Assembly: GCA_026396275.1 (NCBI GenBank)
Contig: JAPLXC010000018.1
Location: 1-36,726 of the forward strand
Origin: Candidatus Moraniibacteriota bacterium
GTDB taxonomy: Bacteria > Patescibacteriota > Minisyncoccia > Moranbacterales > JAPLXC01
DNA length: 36,726 nucleotides
Reading direction: 5' to 3'
In this document: in pieces, positions 4,596 through 31,708 of the stretch
How the letters are laid out: each line of letters begins with the position of its first letter
How positions within the stretch are numbered: position 1 is the stretch's first letter
The notes under the pieces: generated by a model
The model's input: the letters and a program-made list of their open reading frames with translations, nothing else
What the model was told of the DNA's origin: nothing
The model's database searches: none
Position numbers and translations under genes: made by a program

Positions 4596-6131
4596 TTAAT
4601 AAATCTTCGCGATATTTACTCCCGTGAGATAGTATTTGATAATCCTGTCCCATCCCCAGTCATGCTCGCCGGCGACATGCAGCGCTCCATGGGCGCTGAT
4701 GCCGACCATATGATTGCCAGCCGCCACCAATTGAGATGTAGTCATGGTAGGATGCTTGCCATAAGGATCTTTGACTGACTGGCACCAGGGGTAGTCATCG
4801 GAGCCCCAGCGTTCCTCAAAGCTTCTGGTTCTGCCATCAGTCCAAGAGCTGTAGGGCGACAGGGCGATTTCGTCTTTGTATTTACTGATCTTGCCTTTGG
4901 TTTCCTGGACCGCCTGCTTTATTTTCGGATGATCCTCCTCCCATTCGTAGCCGGAGTAAATCTGGCTGGAAGAAGTGGAAGTGACTTTAAATCCCTCGGT
5001 GGCGTATTTGGTGCTGTATTTGATTTTCCAGTAGCCGTAGGTGCGGTAAACCGTTGCCATAGCGCGGTTGTAATCCGCGTCTCCCGTGCCGGTAATTTCT
5101 CCATTGCCCCAGGCATATTGCTCAAGCGGCAAATTATTTATTATCCAAATTTTCTTGGTTGTGCTGCTGTAGCGAACTTTTATTTTTCCCCGGTATTTGT
5201 CAAAAGACGAGGAAGGACGGTGGGCGTCGAAAATCATGGAAGAATTGTTACCGTCTACCGCGTCAAAGCGAATCTCTTTATCCACGATGGTAGATGAGAT
5301 TGAATTATAAATTTTCAGTTTTCCGTCGCCATTATATTTGACTCTGGTTTCCGCACCAGCTGAAACCTTGGCGATTATTTTTCCATCTTTGTTTTTAATG
5401 TTGTAGTTTTTATTAGCGTGGATCCTAAAGGCCTCGTCCTCAAGTTCGCTCCTTGAATGACTCCAGAGCCCCACGCTTATTTCGGGGCCGTAAGTTACGC
5501 CACAAGAAGTTTCGTCGGCGGACAAGTCGGCGCCTTCTTCCGGCACCCACCAGGCGGTGCCCTCGTCTTTCCATTGTCCGCTAAAATTATTAAGAAGGCA
5601 GTTTCTCTCGCCGGGGCTGGTGGTGAAAAAGTGTTTGTGGTATTTGGAATCGTAGAGACGGTAAACGGCGGTTAAACTGTCGCTCTTTTCGGTGTAAGCG
5701 TAAAAAGCGATTCCCTCGTATTTCCATTCATAATCGGAGTAGTTTGAAATCAATTTGTCTTTCTCCGTTTGAGAAATTGTGTAGAAATGAGATCGATTTT
5801 TGCTGCTCCAAAAACGGTAAACGGGCTTAAGATCGCCCTCCTGATTTTTGTAGGCATAAAATTTAATTCCTTCATACTTCCATTCGTTGTCTGAATAATT
5901 AGCGATTACTTTATCTTTCTCGGTTTGCGAAATGGTGTAAAAATACGCCTTATTATTTGAGCTGTAAAAACGGTAAACAGGGGATGATTCAGCGGCTTGA
6001 ACGTTTTTTAAAGGCAAAGAAAGACCCAAAAAACAAAACAGTGACAAAAAAACCGGCAAGAAAAGCATAATCTGGACTCTCTTGCCAGCTGTTATTAGTG
6101 AAAATAAGTTGTTTTTTTGTTTTAATTCCAT
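4596..6131 (-). CDS. Secreted SpoIID/LytB-domain protein with three DUF5648-type repeats
   Basis: A signal peptide (hydrophobic LFLPVFLSLFCFLGLSL, probable cleavage after VQA) is followed by three repeats of about 48 residues with the pattern VYRFY-S-N...HFYT-S-E...W-EG-FY(A)Y, as in DUF5648 (lectin-like repeats). The C-terminal half is a SpoIID/LytB domain: LPLEQYAWG, then GD-DYNRAMATVYRTYGYWKI, matching the family block around LPLEDYL and A-AVAARTYA. SpoIID homologues cut glycan strands or enhance amidases in the cell wall. The frame is open to 6242, but I chose ATG 6131 because a strong promoter (6139-6167) overlaps the extra codons and would start transcription at this ATG. A wall-modifying role is inferred. 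Confidence 0.85.
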   Translation of the reverse strand: MELKQKNNLFSLITAGKRVQIMLFLPVFLSLFCFLGLSLPLKNVQAAESSPVYRFYSSNNKAYFYTISQTEKDKVIANYSDNEWKYEGIKFYAYKNQEGDLKPVYRFWSSKNRSHFYTISQTEKDKLISNYSDYEWKYEGIAFYAYTEKSDSLTAVYRLYDSKYHKHFFTTSPGERNCLLNNFSGQWKDEGTAWWVPEEGADLSADETSCGVTYGPEISVGLWSHSRSELEDEAFRIHANKNYNIKNKDGKIIAKVSAGAETRVKYNGDGKLKIYNSISSTIVDKEIRFDAVDGNNSSMIFDAHRPSSSFDKYRGKIKVRYSSTTKKIWIINNLPLEQYAWGNGEITGTGDADYNRAMATVYRTYGYWKIKYSTKYATEGFKVTSTSSSQIYSGYEWEEDHPKIKQAVQETKGKISKYKDEIALSPYSSWTDGRTRSFEERWGSDDYPWCQSVKDPYGKHPTMTTSQLVAAGNHMVGISAHGALHVAGEHDWGWDRIIKYYLTGVNIAKIY

Positions 6132-11523: not shown

Positions 11524-11557
11524 GGAGGTTGAACCTCCAATTGGAGGTTCAACCTCC
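11524..11557. repeat. 34-bp perfect palindrome
   Basis: The 34 bases are their own reverse complement; each half is itself a hairpin (GGAGGTTgAACCTCC, then AATT, then GGAGGTTcAACCTCC). The motif AACCTCCAAGTAA is repeated at 11551-11563 and 11565-11577 directly before the next start at 11584. It may be a REP-type element of another family than the RAYT-linked REPs; no T-run follows, so a terminator is unlikely. Confidence 0.85.
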
Positions 11558-20230: not shown

Positions 20231-20255
20231 ATAGTATATACGTAGTATATACTAT
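20231..20255. repeat. AT-rich hairpin upstream of the third GT-C gene
   Basis: ATAGTATATAC, loop GTA, GTATATACTAT: an 11-bp perfect stem within an AT-rich stretch (20226-20274) with more TATAC repeats. It lies 17 bp after the stop of paralogue 2 and 54 bp before the next ATG. No T-run follows. It may be a regulatory or pausing structure; nothing else was seen in the gap. Confidence 0.5.
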
Positions 20256-21814: not shown

Positions 21815-22803
21815 TCCGTTTTTTAAAGGCCGGATTTTGGAGGCGAGGCCTTAAAAAAGTCAAGGCGGTTATTTTTCCTAAAAAATTGTCGGGCTTTCGC
21901 GCGAGGATTTTGGGAATTTCCATTGTCTCTTTTTTAGCGCTGACAGTAATTGTTTATGGCGAATATTCATTCTGGAGCGGACTTGAAATGCCGGAAAAGG
22001 GGAAGGATTATTATTTCATTAACGCTTACGCTCGGCAAGCCGTGTCGATCAAAAAGCCGGTGCCGGAAAATCAGGAGAAAAAGATGCCGCCGCCCGATCT
22101 TAAACTCACCGTTGTGGCGGACGCCCACGTTGGGATAGAAATCGGTTATTCAGGCCTTCAGAAATTTATGAATGCTATGGCCAAAGAGAAGCCCGATTTA
22201 GTAATTGATGCCGGGGACCTTATTGAAAGCCGGATAAGATATGAAATAATCCCACCGCTAAGCGCGCAAAACGAATTTGAAATGGCACTGGGAGCAATCG
22301 GAAGAAAATATCCCGTTTATCACGCAGTAGGAACTCATGAGCTGTTCAGCTTGAAGAAAATTGATATCAAAAGCATTACCGCCAGCGAAAGCTATTATAA
22401 TTTTAATTTCAAAGGATATAATATAATTATTTTAGACGCCAATTTTACCCGGGACGGAAGAGACGTTGAACCGGCAAATGCCGTGCCAGGCGCCTACACG
22501 GGCTTTATTCCCCAAAAAGAAAAGGACTGGTTGGAGTGCCAGCTCCGGAGTCACAATCAGAATATTATTTTTAGTCACCATTCGCTTTATAATATTAAAA
22601 ACTTGGCGGAACTGGAAAATATTCTGAAAATGTATAAAAAAAGAATCATTATGACAGCCAACGGCCACAAGCATAGAGCCGAAATAAGAAAATTCGGTGG
22701 AGTTACAAATTACGACCTACCTTCGCTTAAGTGGCAGGAAGCATATAGCATTATTGAAATTTACGGAATGAGTGAGAAAGTGTCGTTTGTTGATCTTGAG
22801 TAG
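21787..22803 (+). CDS. Membrane-anchored metallophosphoesterase (calcineurin-like), paralogue of the lipoprotein
   Basis: 338 residues. Very basic N-terminus, one membrane segment at about 41-63, then the outer catalytic domain: VVADAHVG, IDAGDLIESRI, G-T-H-E (residues 182-185) where the family has G-N-H-E, SHHSLYN and NGHKHRAE. It aligns with the lipoprotein at 10400-11509 over the whole domain, including GAYTGFIPQKEKDWL against GAYMGCLPEVELDWL. The Asn-to-Thr change hits a metal ligand, so the enzyme may be altered or weak; the other ligands are intact. The start lies in the end of the GT-C gene; the next downstream Met would remove the membrane segment. Confidence 0.8.
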   Translation: MAKSRRKKLIRFLKAGFWRRGLKKVKAVIFPKKLSGFRARILGISIVSFLALTVIVYGEYSFWSGLEMPEKGKDYYFINAYARQAVSIKKPVPENQEKKMPPPDLKLTVVADAHVGIEIGYSGLQKFMNAMAKEKPDLVIDAGDLIESRIRYEIIPPLSAQNEFEMALGAIGRKYPVYHAVGTHELFSLKKIDIKSITASESYYNFNFKGYNIIILDANFTRDGRDVEPANAVPGAYTGFIPQKEKDWLECQLRSHNQNIIFSHHSLYNIKNLAELENILKMYKKRIIMTANGHKHRAEIRKFGGVTNYDLPSLKWQEAYSIIEIYGMSEKVSFVDLE

Positions 22804-22843
22804 AAATGTCCGGCTTATCGCGATGAATAACTACGGTATGACT

Positions 22844-22871
22844 CACTACCATATTACGTAATATGGTAGTG
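22844..22871. terminator. 28-bp perfect palindrome between convergent genes
   Basis: CACTACCATATTACGTAATA followed by TGGTAGTG: the 28 bases are fully self-complementary. On + it is followed by TTTTAAT, on - by GAGTC, so it may terminate the phosphoesterase transcript or both converging units. Its CAC...GTG edges resemble the 30-bp palindrome family (AACAC...GTGTT) at 24906, 28606 and 30316. Confidence 0.6.
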
Positions 22872-22895
22872 TTTTAATATGGCTGATAAATACGA

Positions 22896-24362
22896 TTATT
22901 TTTTTCTAGGCAGAAGTATTTTTTTGAATGTAAGGATATCTTCTTTAGTGAATTCTCCTATGATATAAAGAAATAAAACGTAAATTCCACTAAGGATTAT
23001 TCCCCAAAGGATAAAAATCCATTTTAGCGGGGGGAAAAGGAGCGAGGCGGCGAGCATTACCGAGGCGGCCAGAAGAAACTTAAGGAAATGGCCTAGTTCC
23101 ATAAGTTTATTAAAATGCTTTAGCACGTAATATATGATAATCGCCGTTATAAAGATTGACGTTATAGTCGTCGCAGCAGCCGAGCCGCTGATACCGTATT
23201 TGAGAACCAAAATATAATTTAAAATTCCGTTTAAAACCATGCCGGCAAAAGATATCCACATCGGTATTTTTATTTTTCCGGCCCCGTTCAGGGCAAAACT
23301 CATAACGTAAAAAATTGTCAAGAATCCAATGCCCGCGGCGAGAATTTGAAGCGGTAAAACTGCGTCAAGATATCTATTCCCGTAAAATAATTGGACCAGC
23401 GGCTTGGCATAAACAGCCATTAAAATTACAAGCGGAAGAAGAATCATAATCATCATTCGGAAGGTTTGGATAATTATTTTACTTGTTTCCTCGTGTTTAT
23501 TCTGGGAAGTGGTGCGTGATATTGAAGGCAGCATTACCATGGTCAAGGCGTAAAAAAGATAGTAAGGAATGCGGGCGATAGTAAGCGAACCGTTATAGAT
23601 TCCGGTTAAACGGTCATCGCCCAAAAGCGCTTTTACGAAATAAAGGTCGAGGGAAATAAGAATTTCGTAAAAAAGCATAAAGAGCGTAACCGGCCAGGCA
23701 TAATCCAGAAGTTTTTTCCAGTCAAAAGATAAGTCAAATTTTTTTGGAAACTCTTTATTGATTCTCGTTTTATCTATCAACCAAGCAGTGATAAAAACCG
23801 ATGCCGGAGCCAGAATATAAGCCGATACCGAGCCCTTGAGACCGAAATAATAAGCCAGCCCTATGACGAATATAATTCGGGCGAATGACCGGACAATTTT
23901 CAAAGTGGCCTGGAGGTTAAAGCGGTGGATGCCGATGTAATAATAAAGATAAAAAGAAGCGGCGGCAAAAGACGGGATAATGAGCGATGAAATTCTGAAA
24001 AGGGGAGTGAGCGTCGGATCGCCGAGAAGCAGCGAAATTAGCGGAGCGGTGAGGAAAAAAACGATAGTCACGGCGCCAATGAGAAAGAACTGGAGATATG
24101 CGGCTTTTCTTTTAATCACCAGGACAAACTCGGGCTTTGTCTCGAAAATCTCGCTTATGTATTTGCTCATAGCGGTGGGAATGCCGTTTCCGATAAGCAT
24201 GATTATCATGGTGGTGAGCGTCACCACAAGCCCGTAGCGCCCGTAATCGGAAGGGCCTAGCATCCGGCCGAGAACGGAGTGGATGATATAGCCGGAAAAG
24301 TTAAAAAAAATTTCCGCTATGGTAAGAAAAAGCAGTGAAGATGTAACGGATTGTCTTCTCAT
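22896..24362 (-). CDS. Polysaccharide flippase, Wzx/MOP superfamily
   Basis: 488 residues with about twelve to fourteen membrane helices. LGRMLGPSDYGRYGLVVTL near the N-terminus is the classic Wzx signature; MSKYISEIFE, the repeated paired helices, and a late FALNGAGKIKIPMWISFAGMVLNGILNYILV block complete the pattern. It moves lipid-linked oligosaccharides from the inner to the outer leaflet. ATG 24362 is preceded by AGGAG four bases upstream (TAGGAGCTTATG), one of the few canonical ribosome-binding sites outside 34.7-36.1 kb. A 66-bp gap with four TACAAA repeats separates it from the kinase-like gene. Confidence 0.92.
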   Translation of the reverse strand: MRRQSVTSSLLFLTIAEIFFNFSGYIIHSVLGRMLGPSDYGRYGLVVTLTTMIIMLIGNGIPTAMSKYISEIFETKPEFVLVIKRKAAYLQFFLIGAVTIVFFLTAPLISLLLGDPTLTPLFRISSLIIPSFAAASFYLYYYIGIHRFNLQATLKIVRSFARIIFVIGLAYYFGLKGSVSAYILAPASVFITAWLIDKTRINKEFPKKFDLSFDWKKLLDYAWPVTLFMLFYEILISLDLYFVKALLGDDRLTGIYNGSLTIARIPYYLFYALTMVMLPSISRTTSQNKHEETSKIIIQTFRMMIMILLPLVILMAVYAKPLVQLFYGNRYLDAVLPLQILAAGIGFLTIFYVMSFALNGAGKIKIPMWISFAGMVLNGILNYILVLKYGISGSAAATTITSIFITAIIIYYVLKHFNKLMELGHFLKFLLAASVMLAASLLFPPLKWIFILWGIILSGIYVLFLYIIGEFTKEDILTFKKILLPRKK

Positions 24363-24369
24363 AAGCTCC

Positions 24370-24412
24370 TACAAAATTACAAATCATACTACAAATCTAC
24401 AAATTTTTGTAA
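24370..24412. repeat. TACAAAT short repeats
   Basis: TACAAA at 24370, 24378, 24390 and 24398 on +, with a reverse-complement-like TTTTTGTA at 24404-24411. It is a short AT-rich repeat between the flippase and the kinase-like gene, possibly providing the flippase promoter (TATGAT on the minus strand). Nothing else is there. Confidence 0.5.
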
Positions 24413-24428
24413 ATTCATTAGACTCAAA

Positions 24429-25100
24429 TTAATATGTCTTATCTTTTATTACAAGGTTTTTTATTTCATCAAATATTTCTTCTTGATTACGATTTCCGTT
24501 AATTATAGTTAGGTTAAATTCTCTAGCGAAATTATCATACAGGTCCTTTTTCTTTTTTAAATACTCAATTCCCTGATCAGGAATTCTTTCCCGCTGCATT
24601 ATGATTTCCGGATCGGATTGAAGGTAGATTGCCAGAGCAGATTTTACGATATTGTCATTCCGCACTTGATGCGGAATCCAGGAAAATTTTTCTAGATTCT
24701 TGCTTTCGCAGGAATGACGTTGCTGCACAAGGTATGCGATATTCACCACGCTGTCATAAAAATACCGGTCGCTTAAAATATAATCGAAACCCTGATTTTC
24801 CAGTTTTTTAACCAATCTTTTGAATCTTGCCAAATCAATAGATAAAAAAATTTTTCTTAACTGAACAGTGATCCAACCTGCGCTGGTATTACTTTTTTCT
24901 TTTATAACACTTATTTGCGGCCGCAGTAATGTGTTATAAAATATTTTGAAACGATTCGCTATTTTATTCCCGAAAGAAAATTCAACCGCGTGAAAATAAA
25001 AAACGCGTTTTTTTTGCGCTTCCAAGTAATTTTTCAGCAGTTCAGTTTGGGTGGACTTTCCCGATCCATCCAGACCGGAGATAGTAATAATTTTCAGCAT
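24429..25100 (-). CDS. Thymidylate-kinase-like P-loop kinase carrying two in-frame palindromic insertions
   Basis: 223 residues. GLDGSGKST (9-17) is the P-loop of dTMP kinases; SDRYFYDS (about 110-117) is the DRY block; ALAIYLQSDPEIIMQRER corresponds to the family's LTIYLDVDPE. dTMP kinase or a related nucleotide kinase in the thymidylate superfamily is likely, but the usual arginine-rich lid is partly replaced. Two stretches look foreign: NTLLRPQISV, encoded by the 30-bp palindrome at 24906-24935, and RHSCESKNLEKFSWIPHQVRND, encoded by the GTCATTCC-family element at 24654-24718. Both stay in frame. TATAAT lies five bases before the ATG, so the mRNA may be leaderless. It lies between the RtcB-like and Wzx genes. 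Confidence 0.75.
   Translation of the reverse strand: MLKIITISGLDGSGKSTQTELLKNYLEAQKKRVFYFHAVEFSFGNKIANRFKIFYNTLLRPQISVIKEKSNTSAGWITVQLRKIFLSIDLARFKRLVKKLENQGFDYILSDRYFYDSVVNIAYLVQQRHSCESKNLEKFSWIPHQVRNDNIVKSALAIYLQSDPEIIMQRERIPDQGIEYLKKKKDLYDNFAREFNLTIINGNRNQEEIFDEIKNLVIKDKTY
24654..24718. repeat. GTCATTCC-family palindromic element inside the kinase-like gene
   Basis: 65 bp bounded by GTCATTCC (24654-24661) and GGAATGAC (24711-24718); GCGGAATCCAG is shared with the intergenic copy at 18543-18643. It is read through in frame, on the minus strand, as RHSCESKN...WIPHQVRND. The insertion lies in a loop between the DRY block and the last strand region. Confidence 0.8.
24906..24935. repeat. 30-bp AACAC...GTGTT palindrome inside the kinase-like gene
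   Basis: AACAC at the left edge, TGCGGCCGCA at the centre, GTGTT at the right; outer arms TTTATAACAC/GTGTTATAAA (24901-24910/24931-24940) are perfect. It is read on the minus strand as ten codons, NTLLRPQISV. The intergenic copy 28606-28635 matches it at 26 of 30 bases. Confidence 0.85.
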
Positions 25101-25105
25101 AACGC

Positions 25106-25111
25106 ATTATA
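25106..25111 (-). promoter_or_regulatory. -10 box TATAAT, five bases before the ATG of the kinase-like gene
   Basis: TATAAT on the minus strand (25111-25106), then GCGTT and the ATG (25100). A weak CTAACA at 25133-25128 could be the -35. No Shine-Dalgarno is visible. Confidence 0.5.
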
Positions 25112-25129
25112 TTGGCTACTTAATACTTG

Positions 25130-26599
25130 TTAGTATGTCAGCATTACCACTGGTTCCAATGCCGCAACTGTGTTCATAATATTATTACTGGCTAAATCCT
25201 CCACGATTTTTTCAGCATATTGCTGATATAACGTATTCTGATTCCCTATGGTTTTCTTCCTGCCTCGATAAATGTCAAAAGTGTAGTCATTATTTTGCGG
25301 GGAAAGTTCATCGGATCTTATTGTCTCCAGATTAATCGCATCCGCCTTTCCAATTTCATGATTGGCTGAAAAGAAAGTTGATTCGTTTTTATCAGTGCCA
25401 ACCCCAACATAGGCAAGGGTATTAACAAGAGGAGCAATGAGTATTGGTTCTCCGAATAAAGCTCTTGTGGCGCCGTTGCGATGCACCCAAACGTTCTTTC
25501 CAAAATGATTTTCTTGATTAATGTAAACATGAGGCGTATCGTAAAGAAGCTGCAAATCAACCGGCCGCTGGAAAATCTGCTCCAGCGCCAGATCCAGCTG
25601 ATGGGTGATAACGGCCCGATTGGCAAATCCGTAATTGCTGGCGGCTTGGAAAGCGGCAATAAACATCCGGCCCTCAATGCTTTGATCTTCATAGGAAAAC
25701 AATTCTTTCTTTTGTTCTGCCAATTTTATTTTTTTTCTTAAGTTGTTAAACACCGGCCTCATTTGGCTGTCAAAGAAAGTTTGCCCAGTCCGCAAAATGG
25801 TTTTTCCCAGAAAACGATTTTCAGAAACGGGAGTGTAGAGAGAGGCGATATAGCGGCCGATGATTCCCGATCCGGTGTGCATAAGAAAAGCATACTGGTC
25901 GGCGCGGATATTTAATTTTTTGGAAGTTTCATCATTGAAAATTTCCTTTACTTTCATTAGAGAGAGAAAATGGCTTTCGGTGGCTCCCAGAATTCCCAGT
26001 CGGTAGCGTCCCATTTTGATGAATAATGACGGAATAACATCGCGAATTTCTCGTTTAGTGGGGCAATCTTCCTCGGTATTACAGGTAAACGCATTTCCGT
26101 TTTTAAAAGTATTTTCCAGCTCATTCCTTGTCCGCACGGAGAAATAATCAGTAACTGCCTTGCTTCCCTTGCGAAATACATCCATTGATACTTCAGAAGG
26201 AATGGCTTTTCCAATGTATTTTTTAGTAGGAATAGCAGAAACTAGTGCCCGGAATAGTTGATCAACTTTTTCTGGTTTCATTTCTTGCTCACTAAGATCA
26301 GTGAGAATTAGGCGCATCCCGCAGTTGGGGGCGGCATCAACAAGCTGGGGAAACAAGTAATTTTCTGATGCCGCGACTACTCCAGCAGGAGTGCGGAGTC
26401 CTTTTTTGGAATGAGCATCGCTTAGCGCCGCAACGTGGTTGAAAAGCTGTTCATTTTGAGCCAACTCCTCAAGTTGTTTGAACACTTCCTCTTTCGGCAA
26501 AAGATCTTCGGAAGCGTGAAAAATTACCGGCACCTTCATTGTGTCGGCTTGAAGTTCCTTTTTAAATGGTGATATATTCTTCAGGTTATAATTCTTCAT
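25130..26599 (-). CDS. RtcB-like protein (RNA ligase family) with a divergent metal site
   Basis: 489 residues from ATG 26599. Family motifs are recognisable in order: VAALSDAHSKKG (RtcB: V-MPDAH-GKG), A-P-N-C-G-M-R at Cys93 (RtcB: D-V-G-C-G-M), GATESHF (G-GNHF), HTGSGIIGRY (HSGSRGIG), ANRAV, then YDTPHVYINQENHFGKNVWVHRNGATRA (close to the RtcB HRKGATRA block) and FFSANHEIGKADA with His414 where RtcB carries its guanylylated His in the HGAGR motif. RtcB seals 2',3'-cyclic phosphate RNA ends with GTP and Mn2+. Here the first metal Asp and the Asn before the second His are replaced, so true ligase activity is uncertain. I preferred ATG 26599 (overlap with the stop of the upstream GT4) over the more upstream 26638. 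Confidence 0.75.
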   Translation of the reverse strand: MKNYNLKNISPFKKELQADTMKVPVIFHASEDLLPKEEVFKQLEELAQNEQLFNHVAALSDAHSKKGLRTPAGVVAASENYLFPQLVDAAPNCGMRLILTDLSEQEMKPEKVDQLFRALVSAIPTKKYIGKAIPSEVSMDVFRKGSKAVTDYFSVRTRNELENTFKNGNAFTCNTEEDCPTKREIRDVIPSLFIKMGRYRLGILGATESHFLSLMKVKEIFNDETSKKLNIRADQYAFLMHTGSGIIGRYIASLYTPVSENRFLGKTILRTGQTFFDSQMRPVFNNLRKKIKLAEQKKELFSYEDQSIEGRMFIAAFQAASNYGFANRAVITHQLDLALEQIFQRPVDLQLLYDTPHVYINQENHFGKNVWVHRNGATRALFGEPILIAPLVNTLAYVGVGTDKNESTFFSANHEIGKADAINLETIRSDELSPQNNDYTFDIYRGRKKTIGNQNTLYQQYAEKIVEDLASNNIMNTVAALEPVVMLTY

Positions 26600-27716
26600 A
26601 AATTTTCTTGTACTGCTCGGCGATTTTCTGGATGTCAAAATTTTTTTCTACATACTCTCTGGCATTTTTTCCTATCTTCTCCCTTTTTTCCTTATTTTGA
26701 TAAAGGTCAATAATTGCGCTGAATAGTTTTCCAGTATCACCACTTTTTATTGTAACAGAATTCGTTTCATTTGCGAATTCTTGAAGGATGGGAAGATCGG
26801 AAATTATGACCGGTTTGACGCAAGCCATCGCTTCAACCACGGCTAAGGGAACATCAAATTTTCCTTTCATATCACGGACAGGAAATATGACTAAATCTGA
26901 GGTATTGAATAATTTCTCCAATGTCGTAAAAGTTTCAGGAAATCGTGCTAATCCTAACAGATTTTTATCTCTTAGCTTTTTTTGGACCTCCTCTTTTTTT
27001 CTTAGGTCATTCTTGTTTTTTATCCGGCAAGCGAAAATAATTTTAATTTTGTTTTTATCCAAAAGGCCATAATGCCTTATTATCATATCAACAATGTCAT
27101 CGGTGGCGCCAAGACGGGTGAATTCGCCGGGATAAGTTAAAATAAAATCTCCGGGTTGCAAGTTGAGTGTGGTAAGTAATTGATTGTCTTTCGGGGCGGG
27201 AGAGTAGAGATTGAGATCAATACCAGGATAAATTCTTTGAACATTACTAAATCCAAGTTTATTTAGCTTATTTTTTGCACAATCAGAGTAGGTGACGATT
27301 GAGTCGCCGAATATCAGGCCTTTAATTTCCTTGTCAGAAAAAAGATCTTCTCTTAGCGTGGCGACGGTTTGAATACTTTTGGCTTTTTTACTTCCAGCCA
27401 GTTTTTTTATAAGAAAAGTGTTTTGTTTGGTAGGAGTGAAAATGTAGTGGAGAACATCGAAATCATTTCGCATTTTGCGAAGATGCTTAAGTAGTCGCAG
27501 TTTTTGCAAGTAGCTGAAATTATTGGAAGTGTAAATCGGTTTCTGGTGAATGTTTTCGGGAAGATCCGGAATTATTCCGTTCGTCAGAAGGTAAAAATCA
27601 AAACCACCTGTGTTTTTGGCAAGGTTGTAAGCGAAATTCTTTGACGCTTCGTCCCAGGGAGGAGCGATCGGCCGGGTGACTAGCAGTATTTTTTTTCTCC
27701 GATTCTCTTTTTCCAT
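26586..27716 (-). CDS. GT4 family glycosyltransferase
   Basis: 376 residues, GT-B fold. ILLVTRPIAPPWDEASKNFAYNLA is the acceptor-side entry, RIYPGIDLNLYSP the inter-domain loop, ILTYPGEFTRLGATDDIVD starts the donor domain, and FDVPLAVVEAMACVKPVIISDLPILQEF carries the E-A-M-A-C donor motif. The tail ARE YVEKNFDIQKIAEQYKKIYEEL is the usual GT4 end. It overlaps the RtcB-like start by 14 bases, suggesting translational coupling. A small hairpin (GGCTTTAATAAGCC, 27721-27734) lies four bases upstream of the ATG and may influence initiation. The substrate is unknown. Confidence 0.9.
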   Translation of the reverse strand: MEKENRRKKILLVTRPIAPPWDEASKNFAYNLAKNTGGFDFYLLTNGIIPDLPENIHQKPIYTSNNFSYLQKLRLLKHLRKMRNDFDVLHYIFTPTKQNTFLIKKLAGSKKAKSIQTVATLREDLFSDKEIKGLIFGDSIVTYSDCAKNKLNKLGFSNVQRIYPGIDLNLYSPAPKDNQLLTTLNLQPGDFILTYPGEFTRLGATDDIVDMIIRHYGLLDKNKIKIIFACRIKNKNDLRKKEEVQKKLRDKNLLGLARFPETFTTLEKLFNTSDLVIFPVRDMKGKFDVPLAVVEAMACVKPVIISDLPILQEFANETNSVTIKSGDTGKLFSAIIDLYQNKEKREKIGKNAREYVEKNFDIQKIAEQYKKIYEEL

Positions 27717-27720
27717 TTTT

Positions 27721-27734
27721 GGCTTTAATAAGCC
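27721..27734 (-). promoter_or_regulatory. Hairpin just upstream of the GT4 start
   Basis: GGCTT, loop TAAT, AAGCC, four bases before the ATG (27716) on the minus strand. A TATTAA eight bases before the ATG lies within the loop region, so the structure would overlap either the -10 box or the 5' end of the mRNA. Confidence 0.4.
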
Positions 27735-27761
27735 AATAGATAGATTTTCAGGTTCTAGCTA

Positions 27762-27790
27762 TTGACAAACATTTAGTTATATGCTAGGTT
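27762..27790 (+). promoter_or_regulatory. Promoter of the candidate RNA: TTGACA-17-TAGGTT, extended -10
   Basis: Perfect -35 TTGACA (27762-27767), 17-base spacer, -10 TAGGTT (27785-27790) preceded by TGC (extended -10). The seventh base after the -10 is G27797, exactly the first base of a 10-bp helix. No open frame of value begins downstream on +. Confidence 0.65.
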
Positions 27791-27796
27791 ATTATA

Positions 27797-28101
27797 GTGA
27801 AATTGGGAGATGGGATCAGAATACAGACTCTGCAAAGAGTATAAATCTGTCCAAGGCCTCAGTGCAGATCCGTTCCAATTTCACCTAAAAAAGTTCTTTT
27901 GAAACAAATCTTCGCATCGCGCATATATGTTATTTGTAGGGCTATTCGTATAGAAGTAAAAAGTCCAGTACCTTGCCCACGGTCCTGGCATGCGCGGTGC
28001 GATATAAAAGCCCAAGAGGATAAATTAAGAACGTATTGGGAAGTTTTTCTCATCAAGAGATTAATAAATCCATTACACTTAATTTTCCCCGGGCTTTTTT
28101 T
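27797..28101 (+). ncRNA. Candidate stand-alone structured RNA, no known family
   Basis: A roughly 305-nt transcript is predicted from a strong promoter to a U-tract. Helices visible by eye: GTGAAATTGG (27797-27806) with CCAATTTCAC (27875-27884), 10 bp; GGATC (27813-27817) with GATCC (27867-27871); ACAG..ACTC/GAGT..CTGT around a TGCAAA loop (27823-27850); a 13-bp helix with one G-U, 27912-27924 with 27990-28002; inside it CCAG-ACC/GGT-CTGG hairpin (27965-27988) whose loop GCCC (27975-27978) can pair with GGGC (27939-27942), a pseudoknot; TCTC/GAGA hairpin (28048-28060); and AAAAGCCC (28006-28013) with GGGCTTTT (28091-28098), followed by more T. It is not recognisable as tmRNA, RNase P, 6S, SRP or 5S RNA. 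Two open frames here overlap the helices and lack any signal of a gene. Confidence 0.55.
28091..28101 (+). terminator. 3' end of the candidate RNA: GGGC plus T-tract
   Basis: GGGCTTTTTTT closes the helix with AAAAGCCC at 28006-28013 and has the form of a rho-independent end, though the enclosed loop is long (about 77 nt, itself containing a TCTC/GAGA hairpin and GGGAA/TTCCC). Confidence 0.45.
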
Positions 28102-28123
28102 ATTTTTCAAAAATCTTCCCCTT

Positions 28124-28219
28124 ATGTCATTGCGAGGAGCCAGGCGACGCGGCAATCTCATAGTTAGTGAATAAAATTCCGGGATTGCTTCTTCTGCCAA
28201 GGCAGGATCGCAATGACAA
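28124..28219. repeat. GTCATTGCG-type inverted-repeat element
   Basis: Outer arms GTCATTGCGA (28126-28135) and TCGCAATGAC (28208-28217); inner arms GCAATC (28152) and GATTGC (28183). About 96 bp, gene-free, next to the candidate RNA and 7 bp before the stop end of the small membrane protein. The same motif type is widespread in many unrelated bacteria as intergenic palindromes. Confidence 0.75.
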
Positions 28220-28225
28220 ATATTA

Positions 28226-28585
28226 CTATTTTTCAAAATTTTTGTAAATCTCTTTCTTTTCCTCGCCACTTGTAATTGAAACAGTGATTTTGCCGGCAAT
28301 AGAATTGTCGATATTTAATTTGATAATTTCTCTTACTCCTTTGGCAATATTAACATCACCTTCTTTAACTTTATCTTTTTCTGCCAGAACTTCCCAGTGA
28401 AAATTGTTTTGACTGCTGTGGTTTTCAATGACAAAATCTAGCAAATCACCTTTGGGATTTTCAAAATATACCACCCACCAGTTTTTCTGGTAGTCGTAAT
28501 CAGCTTGCCTTTGCTCGACATAAGCAAGATAAAAAAAGCTAGCGAGCAGGATTATTATGAATGATAGTATGATTTTTCGCTCCAT
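28226..28585 (-). CDS. Small membrane-anchored protein with an outer beta-rich domain
   Basis: 119 residues. One membrane segment at about 6-23 and then a domain of about 90 residues with a beta-strand pattern (WWVVYFENPKGDLLDFVIENHSS, then FHWEVLAEKDKVKEGDVNIAKGVREIIKLNI and KITVSITSGEEKKEI), resembling an Ig-like or DUF1616-type outer domain. No catalytic motif is visible. TATTAT lies eight bases before the ATG, so this too may be leaderless. It follows the large membrane protein gene 62 bp downstream on the same strand, separated by a 30-bp palindrome. Confidence 0.75.
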   Translation of the reverse strand: MERKIILSFIIILLASFFYLAYVEQRQADYDYQKNWWVVYFENPKGDLLDFVIENHSSQNNFHWEVLAEKDKVKEGDVNIAKGVREIIKLNIDNSIAGKITVSITSGEEKKEIYKNFEK

Positions 28586-28605
28586 ATAGGCGTATAATAG
28601 CCAGT

Positions 28606-28635
28606 AACACTTTACTGCGGCCGCAGTATTGTGTT
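28606..28635. repeat. 30-bp AACAC...GTGTT palindrome, intergenic copy
   Basis: AACAC, core TTTACTGCGGCCGCAGTATT, GTGTT; the inner TACTGCGGCCGCAGTA is a perfect palindrome. It lies in the 62-bp gap between the large membrane protein and the small anchored protein and matches the in-gene copy 24906-24935 at 26 of 30 positions. Confidence 0.85.
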
Positions 28636-28647
28636 GCCGGATTAGAA

Positions 28648-30618
28648 TTATTTCCTGTGGAATATTGCTATTTCATCAGCGGAATAAACCTGATCGAACT
28701 GCTGGCTTTTTTGAAATTGAGCGCTGTCAAAAGCAGGATTTATTACCACAAAATTAGTCCCGGTTTCTGCAAAACATTTTTTCCCCTCATCAGTGTTAGG
28801 AGAGGAAATCATCTGAAAAGTACACTGCTCGCGCTTTTTATTTTCTTCATAGCGGAAAAAAAAGCTTCGCGTGAAAGGATAATTGTAATCGCGCATAAAA
28901 AACAATTTCATCCAGGCATCGGCGGCAATGTAATAGTGATCCTTGAGAATTATATCTGATTGAGAGGTTTTTTCTGCAAGATACTGCGCCGCGCGGAAAG
29001 TTTGAAAGGTCTGCTGAGCACCACTCGCTTTTAGTGATTGGGCATTGTCAAAAAAGCCATTAGTGGTTACAAATGTGAAAAGCACGACAAAAGTTGACAG
29101 TGCCAGTTTTGAAGAGATATAGACCTTTTTCAGTGCCGGTTCCCGAAACTGGAAAAAAATCCAAGCGAGCGCAACTGCCCCAGCTGCCGCGAGGGGATAA
29201 GAAAGATAATTGGCAATACGGATAGAGGGAATATTAATATGCAGCCATTGGGGCTTCCACGACATAATGAAAATTGTCGCGATCCAGCTTGCAAGAAGCG
29301 CCGCCGGGTAAGGTTTTTTGCGCAAAAAGAGCATGATAATAAACGCGCCGAAAATTCCCAGCACCATCCGCGCTTCACCGGAAATTATGGAAATTTGCGA
29401 AAAGGAAAATCCTTCCTTGGTTGACTTTGATGGCGCTCCCACGACTGTCTCAAGAGCGTTTATTTTAATATAACTGGGAGTGTAGACAAAAAGTAAAAAG
29501 GATAAAGTAAAAAGTAAAAAGATGGTTACGGAGGGAGAAAAAATGAGCTTGCGCCAGATGCGAAAATGATCGAGGAGCGCTTTTCTGTCAGTGATGCTTA
29601 AAATGATAAATAAAATTAGAAATAAAAATAAAACGAAGATGAAAATTAAAGCGCTCAAATGATGAGTGTAAAAAAGGGTAGCGGTTAGGAAAAGAGCCAG
29701 CGTGAAAAAGGTGGGCCTTTTTTCCTGCACGGCGCGGTAGAAAAAATAAATTGCCAGCGGAATAAGAAGATTTCCAATGATATTGCCGATCACGCCGCCG
29801 CTTACGAATTTCGCCTGCGAGGAAGAAATGGCATAAAGCGGGCCAAGAAGGAAAAGCGCGAAGATAGCGGCGTTTTTCCCCCAGGGATATTCTCCAAAAA
29901 GGCGAAGAACAAGGATAAAAACCGCTCCAATCCCGATGATGTTGATTAACAGCAGTACCAGTGGGGGAAAGGCGGAAATTGCATTTGCTCCTGAAATAAG
30001 GGCAATGGCGGCGAATACAAGATGTTCTCCGATTATGAAGTCGGCTATTTTTTGCGGCTGGCTGATGCTATAATGTTCATCTGTTTTAATAATGTCTACT
30101 TTCTCGTATTCCGGAAGCACCCCTTTTTGGACAATCAAGTTAGTCCAGTACATATGGTGCCCCAGATCAGTGGCAGAAGGCGTGATCGTGTCTCGGAGAT
30201 AAACAGTCCGGATAAATACGGAAAGAAAGAAAATAAGTATAACAAGAATTACCTGATTTTTTGAAAAAGAAAATAAGCCGCTGGCACCTTCTTCCTTTTT
30301 CTCTGCTTTCTCTGTGACACTATCCGCCGGCCGGCGGATAGTGTTATACGAGTATTTTATTAAAATGCAAACTAGGAAGAATATTGCTAGTGCAAGCAAA
30401 ATTGAAAATCGAGTAATGGGGATTTTAAATTTTCCTAGCAGAATAAGAAGCACGTCAACAATTCCGATGCTTAGGGCAACAGAGATAATAAATTTCTCAA
30501 GTTCTGAAAATATTTTGCCCTTGCCCCAAATTGCCACCAGCAGGAGATACCCGGGGAGAAAAAGGATTACGGCGATGGCGGCATAAAGCAGTAATTGGTT
30601 TTGGATGAATAAAAGCAT
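28648..30618 (-). CDS. Large polytopic membrane protein, GT-C-like, with in-frame palindrome
   Basis: 656 residues with at least twelve hydrophobic segments, a first outer loop with TPSATDLGHHMYWTNLIV, and a C-terminal outer domain (HYYIAADAWMKLFFMRDYNYPFTRSFFFRYEENKKREQCTF ... NFVVINPAFDSAQF). The layout resembles uncharacterised GT-C-fold proteins (an Asp in the first long loop, then many helices and a soluble tail), but no motif proves a glycosyltransferase. NTIRRPADSV is encoded by the 30-bp palindrome 30316-30345, in a cytoplasmic loop before KAEKKEEG, where an insertion is tolerable. It starts 16 bp after the GT4 upstream, probably in one transcript. Confidence 0.75.
   Translation of the reverse strand: MLLFIQNQLLLYAAIAVILFLPGYLLLVAIWGKGKIFSELEKFIISVALSIGIVDVLLILLGKFKIPITRFSILLALAIFFLVCILIKYSYNTIRRPADSVTEKAEKKEEGASGLFSFSKNQVILVILIFFLSVFIRTVYLRDTITPSATDLGHHMYWTNLIVQKGVLPEYEKVDIIKTDEHYSISQPQKIADFIIGEHLVFAAIALISGANAISAFPPLVLLLINIIGIGAVFILVLRLFGEYPWGKNAAIFALFLLGPLYAISSSQAKFVSGGVIGNIIGNLLIPLAIYFFYRAVQEKRPTFFTLALFLTATLFYTHHLSALIFIFVLFLFLILFIILSITDRKALLDHFRIWRKLIFSPSVTIFLLFTLSFLLFVYTPSYIKINALETVVGAPSKSTKEGFSFSQISIISGEARMVLGIFGAFIIMLFLRKKPYPAALLASWIATIFIMSWKPQWLHINIPSIRIANYLSYPLAAAGAVALAWIFFQFREPALKKVYISSKLALSTFVVLFTFVTTNGFFDNAQSLKASGAQQTFQTFRAAQYLAEKTSQSDIILKDHYYIAADAWMKLFFMRDYNYPFTRSFFFRYEENKKREQCTFQMISSPNTDEGKKCFAETGTNFVVINPAFDSAQFQKSQQFDQVYSADEIAIFHRK
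30316..30345. repeat. 30-bp GACAC...GTGTT palindrome inside the membrane protein gene
   Basis: Edges GACAC and GTGTT around the perfect 20-base palindrome TATCCGCCGGCCGGCGGATA (30321-30340). It is read on the minus strand as NTIRRPADSV, the same frame and length as NTLLRPQISV of the kinase-like gene at 24906-24935. Confidence 0.85.
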
Positions 30619-30634
30619 TTTTTATTTGCTAAAA

Positions 30635-31708
30635 TTATGCGCTAGCAACTACTTTTTTAATTTCTTCTAAATACTTCCTGGATATGATATCCCAGCTGTA
30701 ATTGTCAATCACGAATTGTCGGGCTCGGACGCCAAAATTTTTTCTGAAACTTTCATCGGCTAAGAGTTTATTAATCTTATCAACATAACCTTGAATGTCG
30801 TATGGCTCAACTAGGAAACCATTTTGGCCATCTTTAATCGCATCTTGTAATCCCTCCAGCCGCGAAGCAATTACCGGAAGGCGGCAAGAGGCAGCTTCAA
30901 TAACGGAAATGCCGAAACCCTCCATATCCCCGGGCACTTTGATGTTGGGCTGAATAAAGAGATCGCAGGTGTTGAATAAAACGTTTCTCGCCTCGTCAGT
31001 CACGTATCCAAGCGCTTTGACCTGGCCGCGCAAATTATTTTTTTCAATCGCCATTCTTACTTTTTCCCTGTCCGGGCCATCGCCGGCAACGACGTAAATA
31101 ATGTTTCCGCCTAATTTCGGCATAACGTTTTCAATAAACCAGGCAACCCCTTTTCTTCTGGCCAGCCGTCCGGAAGTGAGAATAACTTTTTTATTTTCCA
31201 GTTTTTCTCCTAAAATTTTTTCCAAATCTTCTCTCGAATAACTGCCGATAAGTTTTTGGGTATCCACGCCATTAGGAATGAAGGCAAATTTTTCCCGCGG
31301 AATTCCCCGCGAGACACTTTCCCGAATGGTTTCGTTTCCGACAGCGATTAATTTATCCAGCTTTTTAATAAAAATCCCGACCCAGAATTTCTGGTACAGT
31401 TTCATTTTATAAGTCAGGTCTAATCCGTGAACAACGCCAATGACCGGTTTTTTGTAAAATAATTTCAGAATCCAGCCGACAATTCCCAAAACGCCGTCGC
31501 CCAAAAGCAAAACGTCGTAGTTTTTAAATAAAAACAGCGCCTTTATGAGAGAGTAGGGAAGAAATAAGGGAAGAAATTTTTTACCGTGCTTATTGGCGAT
31601 AGTTTTCACTTTTGCCAGCTTCGACAGCCAGACAGAAAGCTCGTAGTTTTGATTTTCAATCCCGCCGACAATCGGCGGATAAGCGCGGGAAATGAATAAA
31701 ATTCTCAT
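30635..31708 (-). CDS. GT4 family glycosyltransferase
   Basis: 357 residues, GT-B fold. FISRAYPPIVGGIENQNYELS is the acceptor-side loop (GG-IE), GVVHGLDLTYK, FIPNGVDTQKLI, then the donor half ILTSGRLARRKGVAWFIE, VVAGDGPDREK and P-GDMEGFGISVIEAASCRLPV with the E-x7-E motif. The tail NYSWDIISRKYLEEIKKV is normal. It is the first gene of a short minus-strand unit with the large membrane protein and small anchored protein downstream, from a promoter six bases before the ATG. Confidence 0.92.
   Translation of the reverse strand: MRILFISRAYPPIVGGIENQNYELSVWLSKLAKVKTIANKHGKKFLPLFLPYSLIKALFLFKNYDVLLLGDGVLGIVGWILKLFYKKPVIGVVHGLDLTYKMKLYQKFWVGIFIKKLDKLIAVGNETIRESVSRGIPREKFAFIPNGVDTQKLIGSYSREDLEKILGEKLENKKVILTSGRLARRKGVAWFIENVMPKLGGNIIYVVAGDGPDREKVRMAIEKNNLRGQVKALGYVTDEARNVLFNTCDLFIQPNIKVPGDMEGFGISVIEAASCRLPVIASRLEGLQDAIKDGQNGFLVEPYDIQGYVDKINKLLADESFRKNFGVRARQFVIDNYSWDIISRKYLEEIKKVVASA

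Follow-up and report, generated by a model that had tools for sequence, protein, structure and literature searches.

How does one short palindrome come to stand between genes and also, with the reading frame unbroken, inside unrelated genes of the same bacterium? The question is raised by the window analysed here, a stretch of 36,726 nucleotides from a Candidatus Moraniibacteriota bacterium (contig JAPLXC010000018.1), which forms contig C18 in a genome of 810 kb and 22 contigs (G000) that, in our reading, has the character of a small Patescibacteria/CPR genome. The window holds three copies of a palindromic element, called PAL below. In many Patescibacteria-type genomes a matching PAL pair brackets one or more genes for a winged-helix, Cas2-like protein of ~190 residues, and further PALs are scattered, mostly in intergenic regions, with identical copies between unrelated flanks in one genome. 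We consider it probable (roughly 0.6) that the PALs of the window are dispersed, non-autonomous copies of a family resembling repetitive extragenic palindromes (REPs) or miniature inverted-repeat transposable elements, and that the system works like that of REPs and REP-associated tyrosine transposases (RAYTs) with a non-homologous protein of the PaaX/Cas2 fold.

The palindrome in the window and its genome

Two covariance models were used. R1 was built from the first copies, and its further matches were nearly all 30 bp as modelled; R2 was built from a 34-column PAL alignment, and places in the genome were counted at E<=1. The copies and their host genes are as follows.

24904..24937, no strand: PAL copy 1, inside the kinase-like gene, inner 30 bp at 24906-24935; R1 40.0 bits, also an R2 place
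28604..28637, no strand: PAL copy 2, between genes, its end lying 12 bp before the stop-codon end (28648) of the DUF6541 gene; R1 44.6 bits, R2 place
30314..30347, no strand: PAL copy 3, inside the DUF6541 membrane-protein gene in open frame; R1 45.3 bits, R2 place
24429..25100, minus strand: thymidylate-kinase-like gene (PF02223, E=2.1e-9), host of PAL copy 1
28648..30618, minus strand: DUF6541 membrane-protein gene (PF20176, E=4.9e-14), host of PAL copy 3

The original prediction, a reading of the letters of the window, described 30-bp palindromes at 24906-24935, 28606-28635 and 30316-30345, and these are present with RACAC...GTGTT ends and a CGGCCG centre; the two in-gene copies are read in open frame as NTLLRPQISV (kinase) and NTIRRPADSV (DUF6541), and the third is intergenic. 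Five strand-hits of the pattern RACAC-N20-GTGTT occur in the window, whereas 100 dinucleotide shuffles yield 0.01 on average and never as many as five. The length of 30 bp holds for the palindrome as first delimited, but when the copies are aligned on the dyad, base pairing extends outward past 30 bp, and the conserved palindrome includes 2 bp more on each side, 34 bp in total. Likewise, the count of three holds for the window, but the R2 search finds 16 places in the genome, 5 of which interrupt or extend open reading frames (ORFs) and 11 of which are intergenic by approximate gene calls.

The unit is thus a palindrome of ~34 bp, roughly GTnnCA-n8-CGR on one side of the dyad and YCG-n8-TGnnAC on the other. 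A gapless 34-bp alignment of copies from this and other genomes reads nTAnCATnATnnnACGG to the left of the dyad and CCGTnnnATnATGnTAn to the right, with CGnnCG invariant and C-A at positions -13,-12 nearly so. The arms vary yet stay complementary, with changes on both sides in 14 of 15 pairs. Pairing is found in 92% of cells, whereas shuffles reach 60% and sliding the partner gives no more than 50%. The level partly reflects selection, because the sequences were picked as palindromes. Two PALs on different contigs (L018 and L019) are identical over 30 bp and have unrelated flanks, which argues for copying.

Several leads were dropped. A tight GGCC-core pattern gave one single-mismatch match in 130 other genomes of the order, which was judged to be chance, since the arms differ between genomes. 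C-A at -13,-12 was rejected by eye as a phylum-wide rule on loci L292-L320, and therefore the phylum-wide claims are confined to the centre and the bracketing. The clustering of three copies within 5.4 kb is not argued, because a hand estimate gives ~0.08 for any such cluster among 16. No Rfam match was obtained in window positions 22000-31000 at E up to 0.1, no PAL-type matches were found in viral contigs, and no convincing isolated half-site of the kind expected for separated insertion sequence ends was seen in the half of the genome that was read.

The bracketed gene

The genome of the window has two paralogous genes (L057:2667-3248 and a gene in L049 ending at 5665) for a protein with a helix-turn-helix and a Cas2-like domain (PF20803, PaaX_M), and both are bracketed by PALs. 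The left half-site of PAL copy 1, AACACTTATTTGCGG, differs in 1 of 15 bases from a half-site beside the Cas2-like gene of contig C19. A homologue in genome G014, from another family, also has palindromes on both sides, of a different sequence that belongs to that genome; there, a reverse-transcriptase gene (L242:799-1854, RVT_1, E=1.5e-25) adjoins the PAL-bracketed Cas2-like gene.

The bracketed proteins have ~193 residues, a winged helix and a PaaX_M/Cas2-like domain (PF20803, E=3.7e-17), with weak Cas2 matches to TIGR01573 and PF09827; the Pfam scan gave these domains and no Y1_Tnp. The AlphaFold2 model has a mean predicted local distance difference test score of 84.7, and its top Foldseek match is PaaX of E. 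coli W (8a39, E=2.7e-5), with Cas2 structures ranked lower at weaker E-values. The score against the PaaX equivalog TIGR02277 is 31 bits, below the cut-off of 265, and a Cas2-type aspartate, D128 in FDIPE, is invariant in 36 sequences.

Association of gene and palindrome across genomes

Of the 71 loci of the Cas2-like gene in the order, 40 lie within 300 bp of a CGNNCG-centred palindrome, and 17 of these have one on each side; such a palindrome was found at 1/29 uppP and 0/29 kinase control loci of the same order (1/58 in total). Phylum-wide, 15 of 29 loci have a palindrome within 200 bp (both sides, 11), and these 29 had no part in the definition of the motif. The two also occur together in genomes: with kinship ignored here and in the tests that follow, the gene is present in 39 of 41 PAL-positive genomes against 56 of 124 overall (Fisher p=2e-16). 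Leaving out the 23 genomes that contributed to R2, the proportions are 16/33 against 2/68 (p=7e-8), and a second set of 380 genomes, which includes that of the window, gives 25/27 PAL-positive genomes with the gene against 120/380 (Fisher p=9e-12).

The palindrome also tracks the sequence of the protein. The more similar two proteins are, the more similar their PAL half-sites tend to be (Mantel r=0.40, p=2e-4), also for protein pairs below 0.6 identity (r=0.29, p=4e-4), and the PALs on the two sides of one gene have a similarity of 0.82, against 0.41 between loci. Two paralogues are present in genome G045, two types of PAL stand beside them, and both types are dispersed as well. Among 69 phylum-wide PAL places, at least 21 adjoin the gene, and the other 48 stand beside none among the matches listed.

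Copies inside genes

The five in-gene PALs lie in the kinase gene, the DUF6541 gene, an O-antigen-ligase-like ORF, uppP and thrS; in the ligase-like ORF the PAL is at the C-terminus, two codons before the stop. The extra residues are absent from 29/29 homologues of the kinase and 29/29 of UppP, and ThrS, compared with E. coli ThrS, has extra residues at its PAL copy. Both the kinase and UppP have these residues in hypervariable loops of variable length, and other species hold unrelated inserts at the same points. Homologues of the kinase-like gene occur in 103 of 124 genomes of the order; among named genomes the only relative is a distant Candidatus Moraniibacteriota contig with 53% identity, and therefore no empty sites are available there.

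The kinase, DUF6541 and ligase-like copies share the frame that reads R-P, but the uppP and thrS copies are read in others, so that a common frame does not hold as a rule. The common arm types contain a stop codon in one or two of the three frames. With some frames closed in this way, part of the sharing is expected from survival alone, and no special cause is called for. The same orientation, also proposed, has no meaning for a dyad-symmetric element. Nor is a length or frame suited to insertion into proteins borne out, given that 11 of 16 copies are intergenic, 2 of 5 in-gene copies are in other frames and the loops hold unrelated inserts in other species. Among the outcomes named in the original prediction as speaking against it, the lack of a shared frame genome-wide was observed; a lack of excess copies and the same residues in homologues were not.

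That prediction had likened the element to the Rickettsia palindromic elements (RPEs). The likeness stands in so far as an interspersed palindrome lies within genes and leaves the frame unbroken, and it fails in that no frame is special, REP/RAYT being the closer analogy. A frame-adapted intragenic element of the RPE kind would account for the in-frame copies; the copies are mostly intergenic, their frames differ, a gene of their own kind is bracketed, and they measure 34 bp against ~150 bp for RPEs (PMC10969869), which makes this explanation very improbable.

The kinase gene holds a second, unrelated repeat insert at 24651-24720, of the GTCATTCC...GGAATGACG type and read RHSCESKN...WIPHQVRND. 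An insert related to this repeat is present in the O-antigen-ligase ORF in L001.

Genomic placement and segment boundaries

Dispersed PALs with resolvable context lie in 39 tandem, 25 convergent and 6 divergent gaps and in 11 genes; the gene calls behind these counts are approximate, and the 11 may include palindromes of unrelated kinds. Placement bears on the idea that PALs are operators of a PaaX-like regulator, the bracketing copies being autoregulatory and the dispersed ones forming a regulon. The winged helix of the protein, its best structural match to the repressor PaaX, and the dyad symmetry of PALs that co-vary with the protein all agree with this. On the other hand, the dispersed PALs avoid divergent promoter gaps, some lie inside genes, the 3' side of the gene is bracketed as well, and perfect palindromes of 34-54 bp exceed the needs of an operator. 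PALs favour gene ends over promoters, and therefore a plain operator or regulon is disfavoured; we regard it as unlikely.

The same bias towards 3' ends would fit PALs that terminate transcription, or neutral palindromes that some unrelated process has spread, with the gene merely insulated by them. Five species of genus g31 have a PAL after the same stop codon, with differing arm sequences and in an AAAA-hairpin-TTTT form, and this PAL could act as a terminator. As a general account this is improbable in view of the CGRYCG centre common across the phylum, the tracking with the protein, the co-occurrence with the gene and the in-gene copies.

At one syntenic site in genus g15, genome G054 has the arrangement PAL-gene-PAL, G014 has an extra ~2.7 kb with the reverse-transcriptase gene between PALs, and in G053 homology stops exactly at a PAL, the missing flank being on another contig that ends near a PAL. 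A PAL-rich segment of ~3 kb distinguishes genomes G044 and G045. These cases hint at exchange of PAL-bounded segments, a conclusion limited by contig breaks, which fall at repeats. PALs could then be attachment sites of an integron-like cassette or other site-specific recombination system, with the genes between them as exchangeable cargo. The differing content at the g15 site, the end of homology at the PAL in G053, the G014 reverse-transcriptase gene between two PALs and the genes of G004 separated by PALs would suit such a system, but solitary PALs lie inside genes of the window's genome, no recombinase was identified, contig ends at repeats weaken the comparison, and homologous recombination between repeats would give the same picture. 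We rate this a little below the operator in probability. In G004 (L241:6583-9646), single genes, one of them for an Mrr-type restriction nuclease, are separated by PALs, and a Cas2-like gene ends the run.

Proposed mechanism and its standing

The reading that we prefer, dispersed copies served by the Cas2-like protein, would have the protein mobilise the PALs; the association is a computed result, the mobilisation an inference from it. A protein dimer may bind the dyad, its winged helices contacting the half-sites and its two Cas2-like domains covering the CGRYCG centre. The protein would then copy PAL DNA or insert it, at times together with its own gene or with cargo enclosed by two PALs, and in-gene PALs would persist where stop-free residues enter tolerant loops.

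Several points weigh against REP/MITE-like dispersal by this protein. PaaX-fold proteins are otherwise known as regulators, and the copy number is low relative to REPs (16 here). Neither a clean empty site nor a target duplication was found: G047, in genus g31, is without a PAL downstream of uppP, with its right flank diverged, and the flanks of PALs show no consistent direct repeat and tend to continue the palindrome. By the set criterion the palindrome is missing at 31/71 loci in the order and 14/29 in the phylum. The PALs of the window resemble those at the genes of their own genome with similarities of 0.59 and 0.62, somewhat above most other loci (median 0.51) but hardly above the best of them (0.59), which is a weak result, and the Mantel signal fades for distant proteins (below 0.45 identity, r=0.12, p=0.08). 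Finally, the association tests carry no phylogenetic weighting of genomes.

The wider proposal, a new class of minimal mobile DNA in which palindromes are copied or integrated by a winged-helix, Cas2-fold enzyme that its own palindromes bracket, spread in Patescibacteria and able to carry cargo, is tentative, and we put it at slightly less than an even chance. In the open-access literature (subscription journals and preprints lay outside the scope), no paper was found that ties PaaX/Cas2-like proteins to palindromes, including in the candidate phyla radiation, and none that assigns a role to the Cas2- or PaaX-like genes of ultra-small bacteria. Genes with these annotations are numerous and multi-copy in such bacteria, and their link with the palindrome gives them a function open to direct test, namely that the protein recognises a particular site of ~34 bp. 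Should the protein prove to move palindromes, a life style like that of REP/RAYT would have been reached a second time with an unrelated protein, a Cas2-type counterpart that is perhaps informative on the route of Cas2 into DNA integration, and the odd ten-residue inserts in essential proteins (UppP, ThrS) would be accounted for.

Other repeats and palindromes

The genome of the window is rich in several palindrome families. Half of it (L040-L059 and the window) holds 51 zero-loop palindromes, some with overlapping centres, against none in one Markov control. The original prediction also allowed for an ACGT centre, but the ACGT-centred palindrome at 22844-22871 belongs to a different repeat family: it is a perfect palindrome, CACTACCATATTACGTAATATGGTAGTG, between convergent genes, with an exact copy in genome G008 of another family (L007). 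A perfect 34-bp palindrome, GGAGGTTGAACCTCCAATTGGAGGTTCAACCTCC, lies at 11524-11557, and ATAGTATATACGTAGTATATACTAT at 20231-20255 has a related palindrome at L059:10368-10405 of the same genome, perhaps of another family. The gap beside PAL copy 2 contains, at 28128-28222, a repeat of the form GTCATTGCGAGGAGC...GCAATGAC, a type that is widespread among bacterial genomes. At L220:1402-3013, two different CGGCCG-centred palindromes alternate three times in ~1.6 kb.

Comparison with known systems

RPEs (Ogata et al. 2000, as described in PMC10969869) are ~150 bp long, encode a conserved peptide and are often found in frame in ORFs. PAL shares with them a palindromic repeat in frame within unrelated protein-coding genes, and differs in its length of ~34 bp, its mostly intergenic position, its several frames and its link with a bracketed gene. 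The bracketed protein has the winged helix and Cas2-like middle domain of the PaaX repressor; unlike PaaX, it has ~190 residues and no matched C-terminal PaaX domain, is multi-copy in many genomes and palindrome-bracketed, and no link with phenylacetate genes was noticed. With the Cas2 of clustered regularly interspaced short palindromic repeats (CRISPR) it has in common a ferredoxin-like domain of the Cas2 type with the invariant Asp in FDIPE, whereas it is fused to an N-terminal winged helix and tied to dispersed palindromes, and no CRISPR array was noticed at the loci examined.

RAYTs are Y1 HUH transposases of the IS200/IS605 type, are flanked by two REPs with which they co-diverge and co-occur, and their REPs carry a GTAG-type head (Nunvar et al. 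2010, PMC2817692). The PAL system resembles them in its PAL-flanked gene, dispersed intergenic copies, co-divergence of repeat and protein and correlated presence across genomes. It departs from them in that the bracketed protein is a winged helix with a PaaX_M/Cas2-like domain and not a Y1 HUH transposase, and in that PAL, dyad-symmetric over its 34 alignment columns and with 16 copies only, has no GTAG/GTGG-type tetranucleotide head. The nearest parallel is therefore REP/RAYT and not RPE, since palindromes of the same design flank the PaaX/Cas2-like gene and are found together with it in genomes throughout the phylum. The pairing of protein and repeat appears to be new, less so if the protein is a regulator only, and its way of life resembles that of REP/RAYT.

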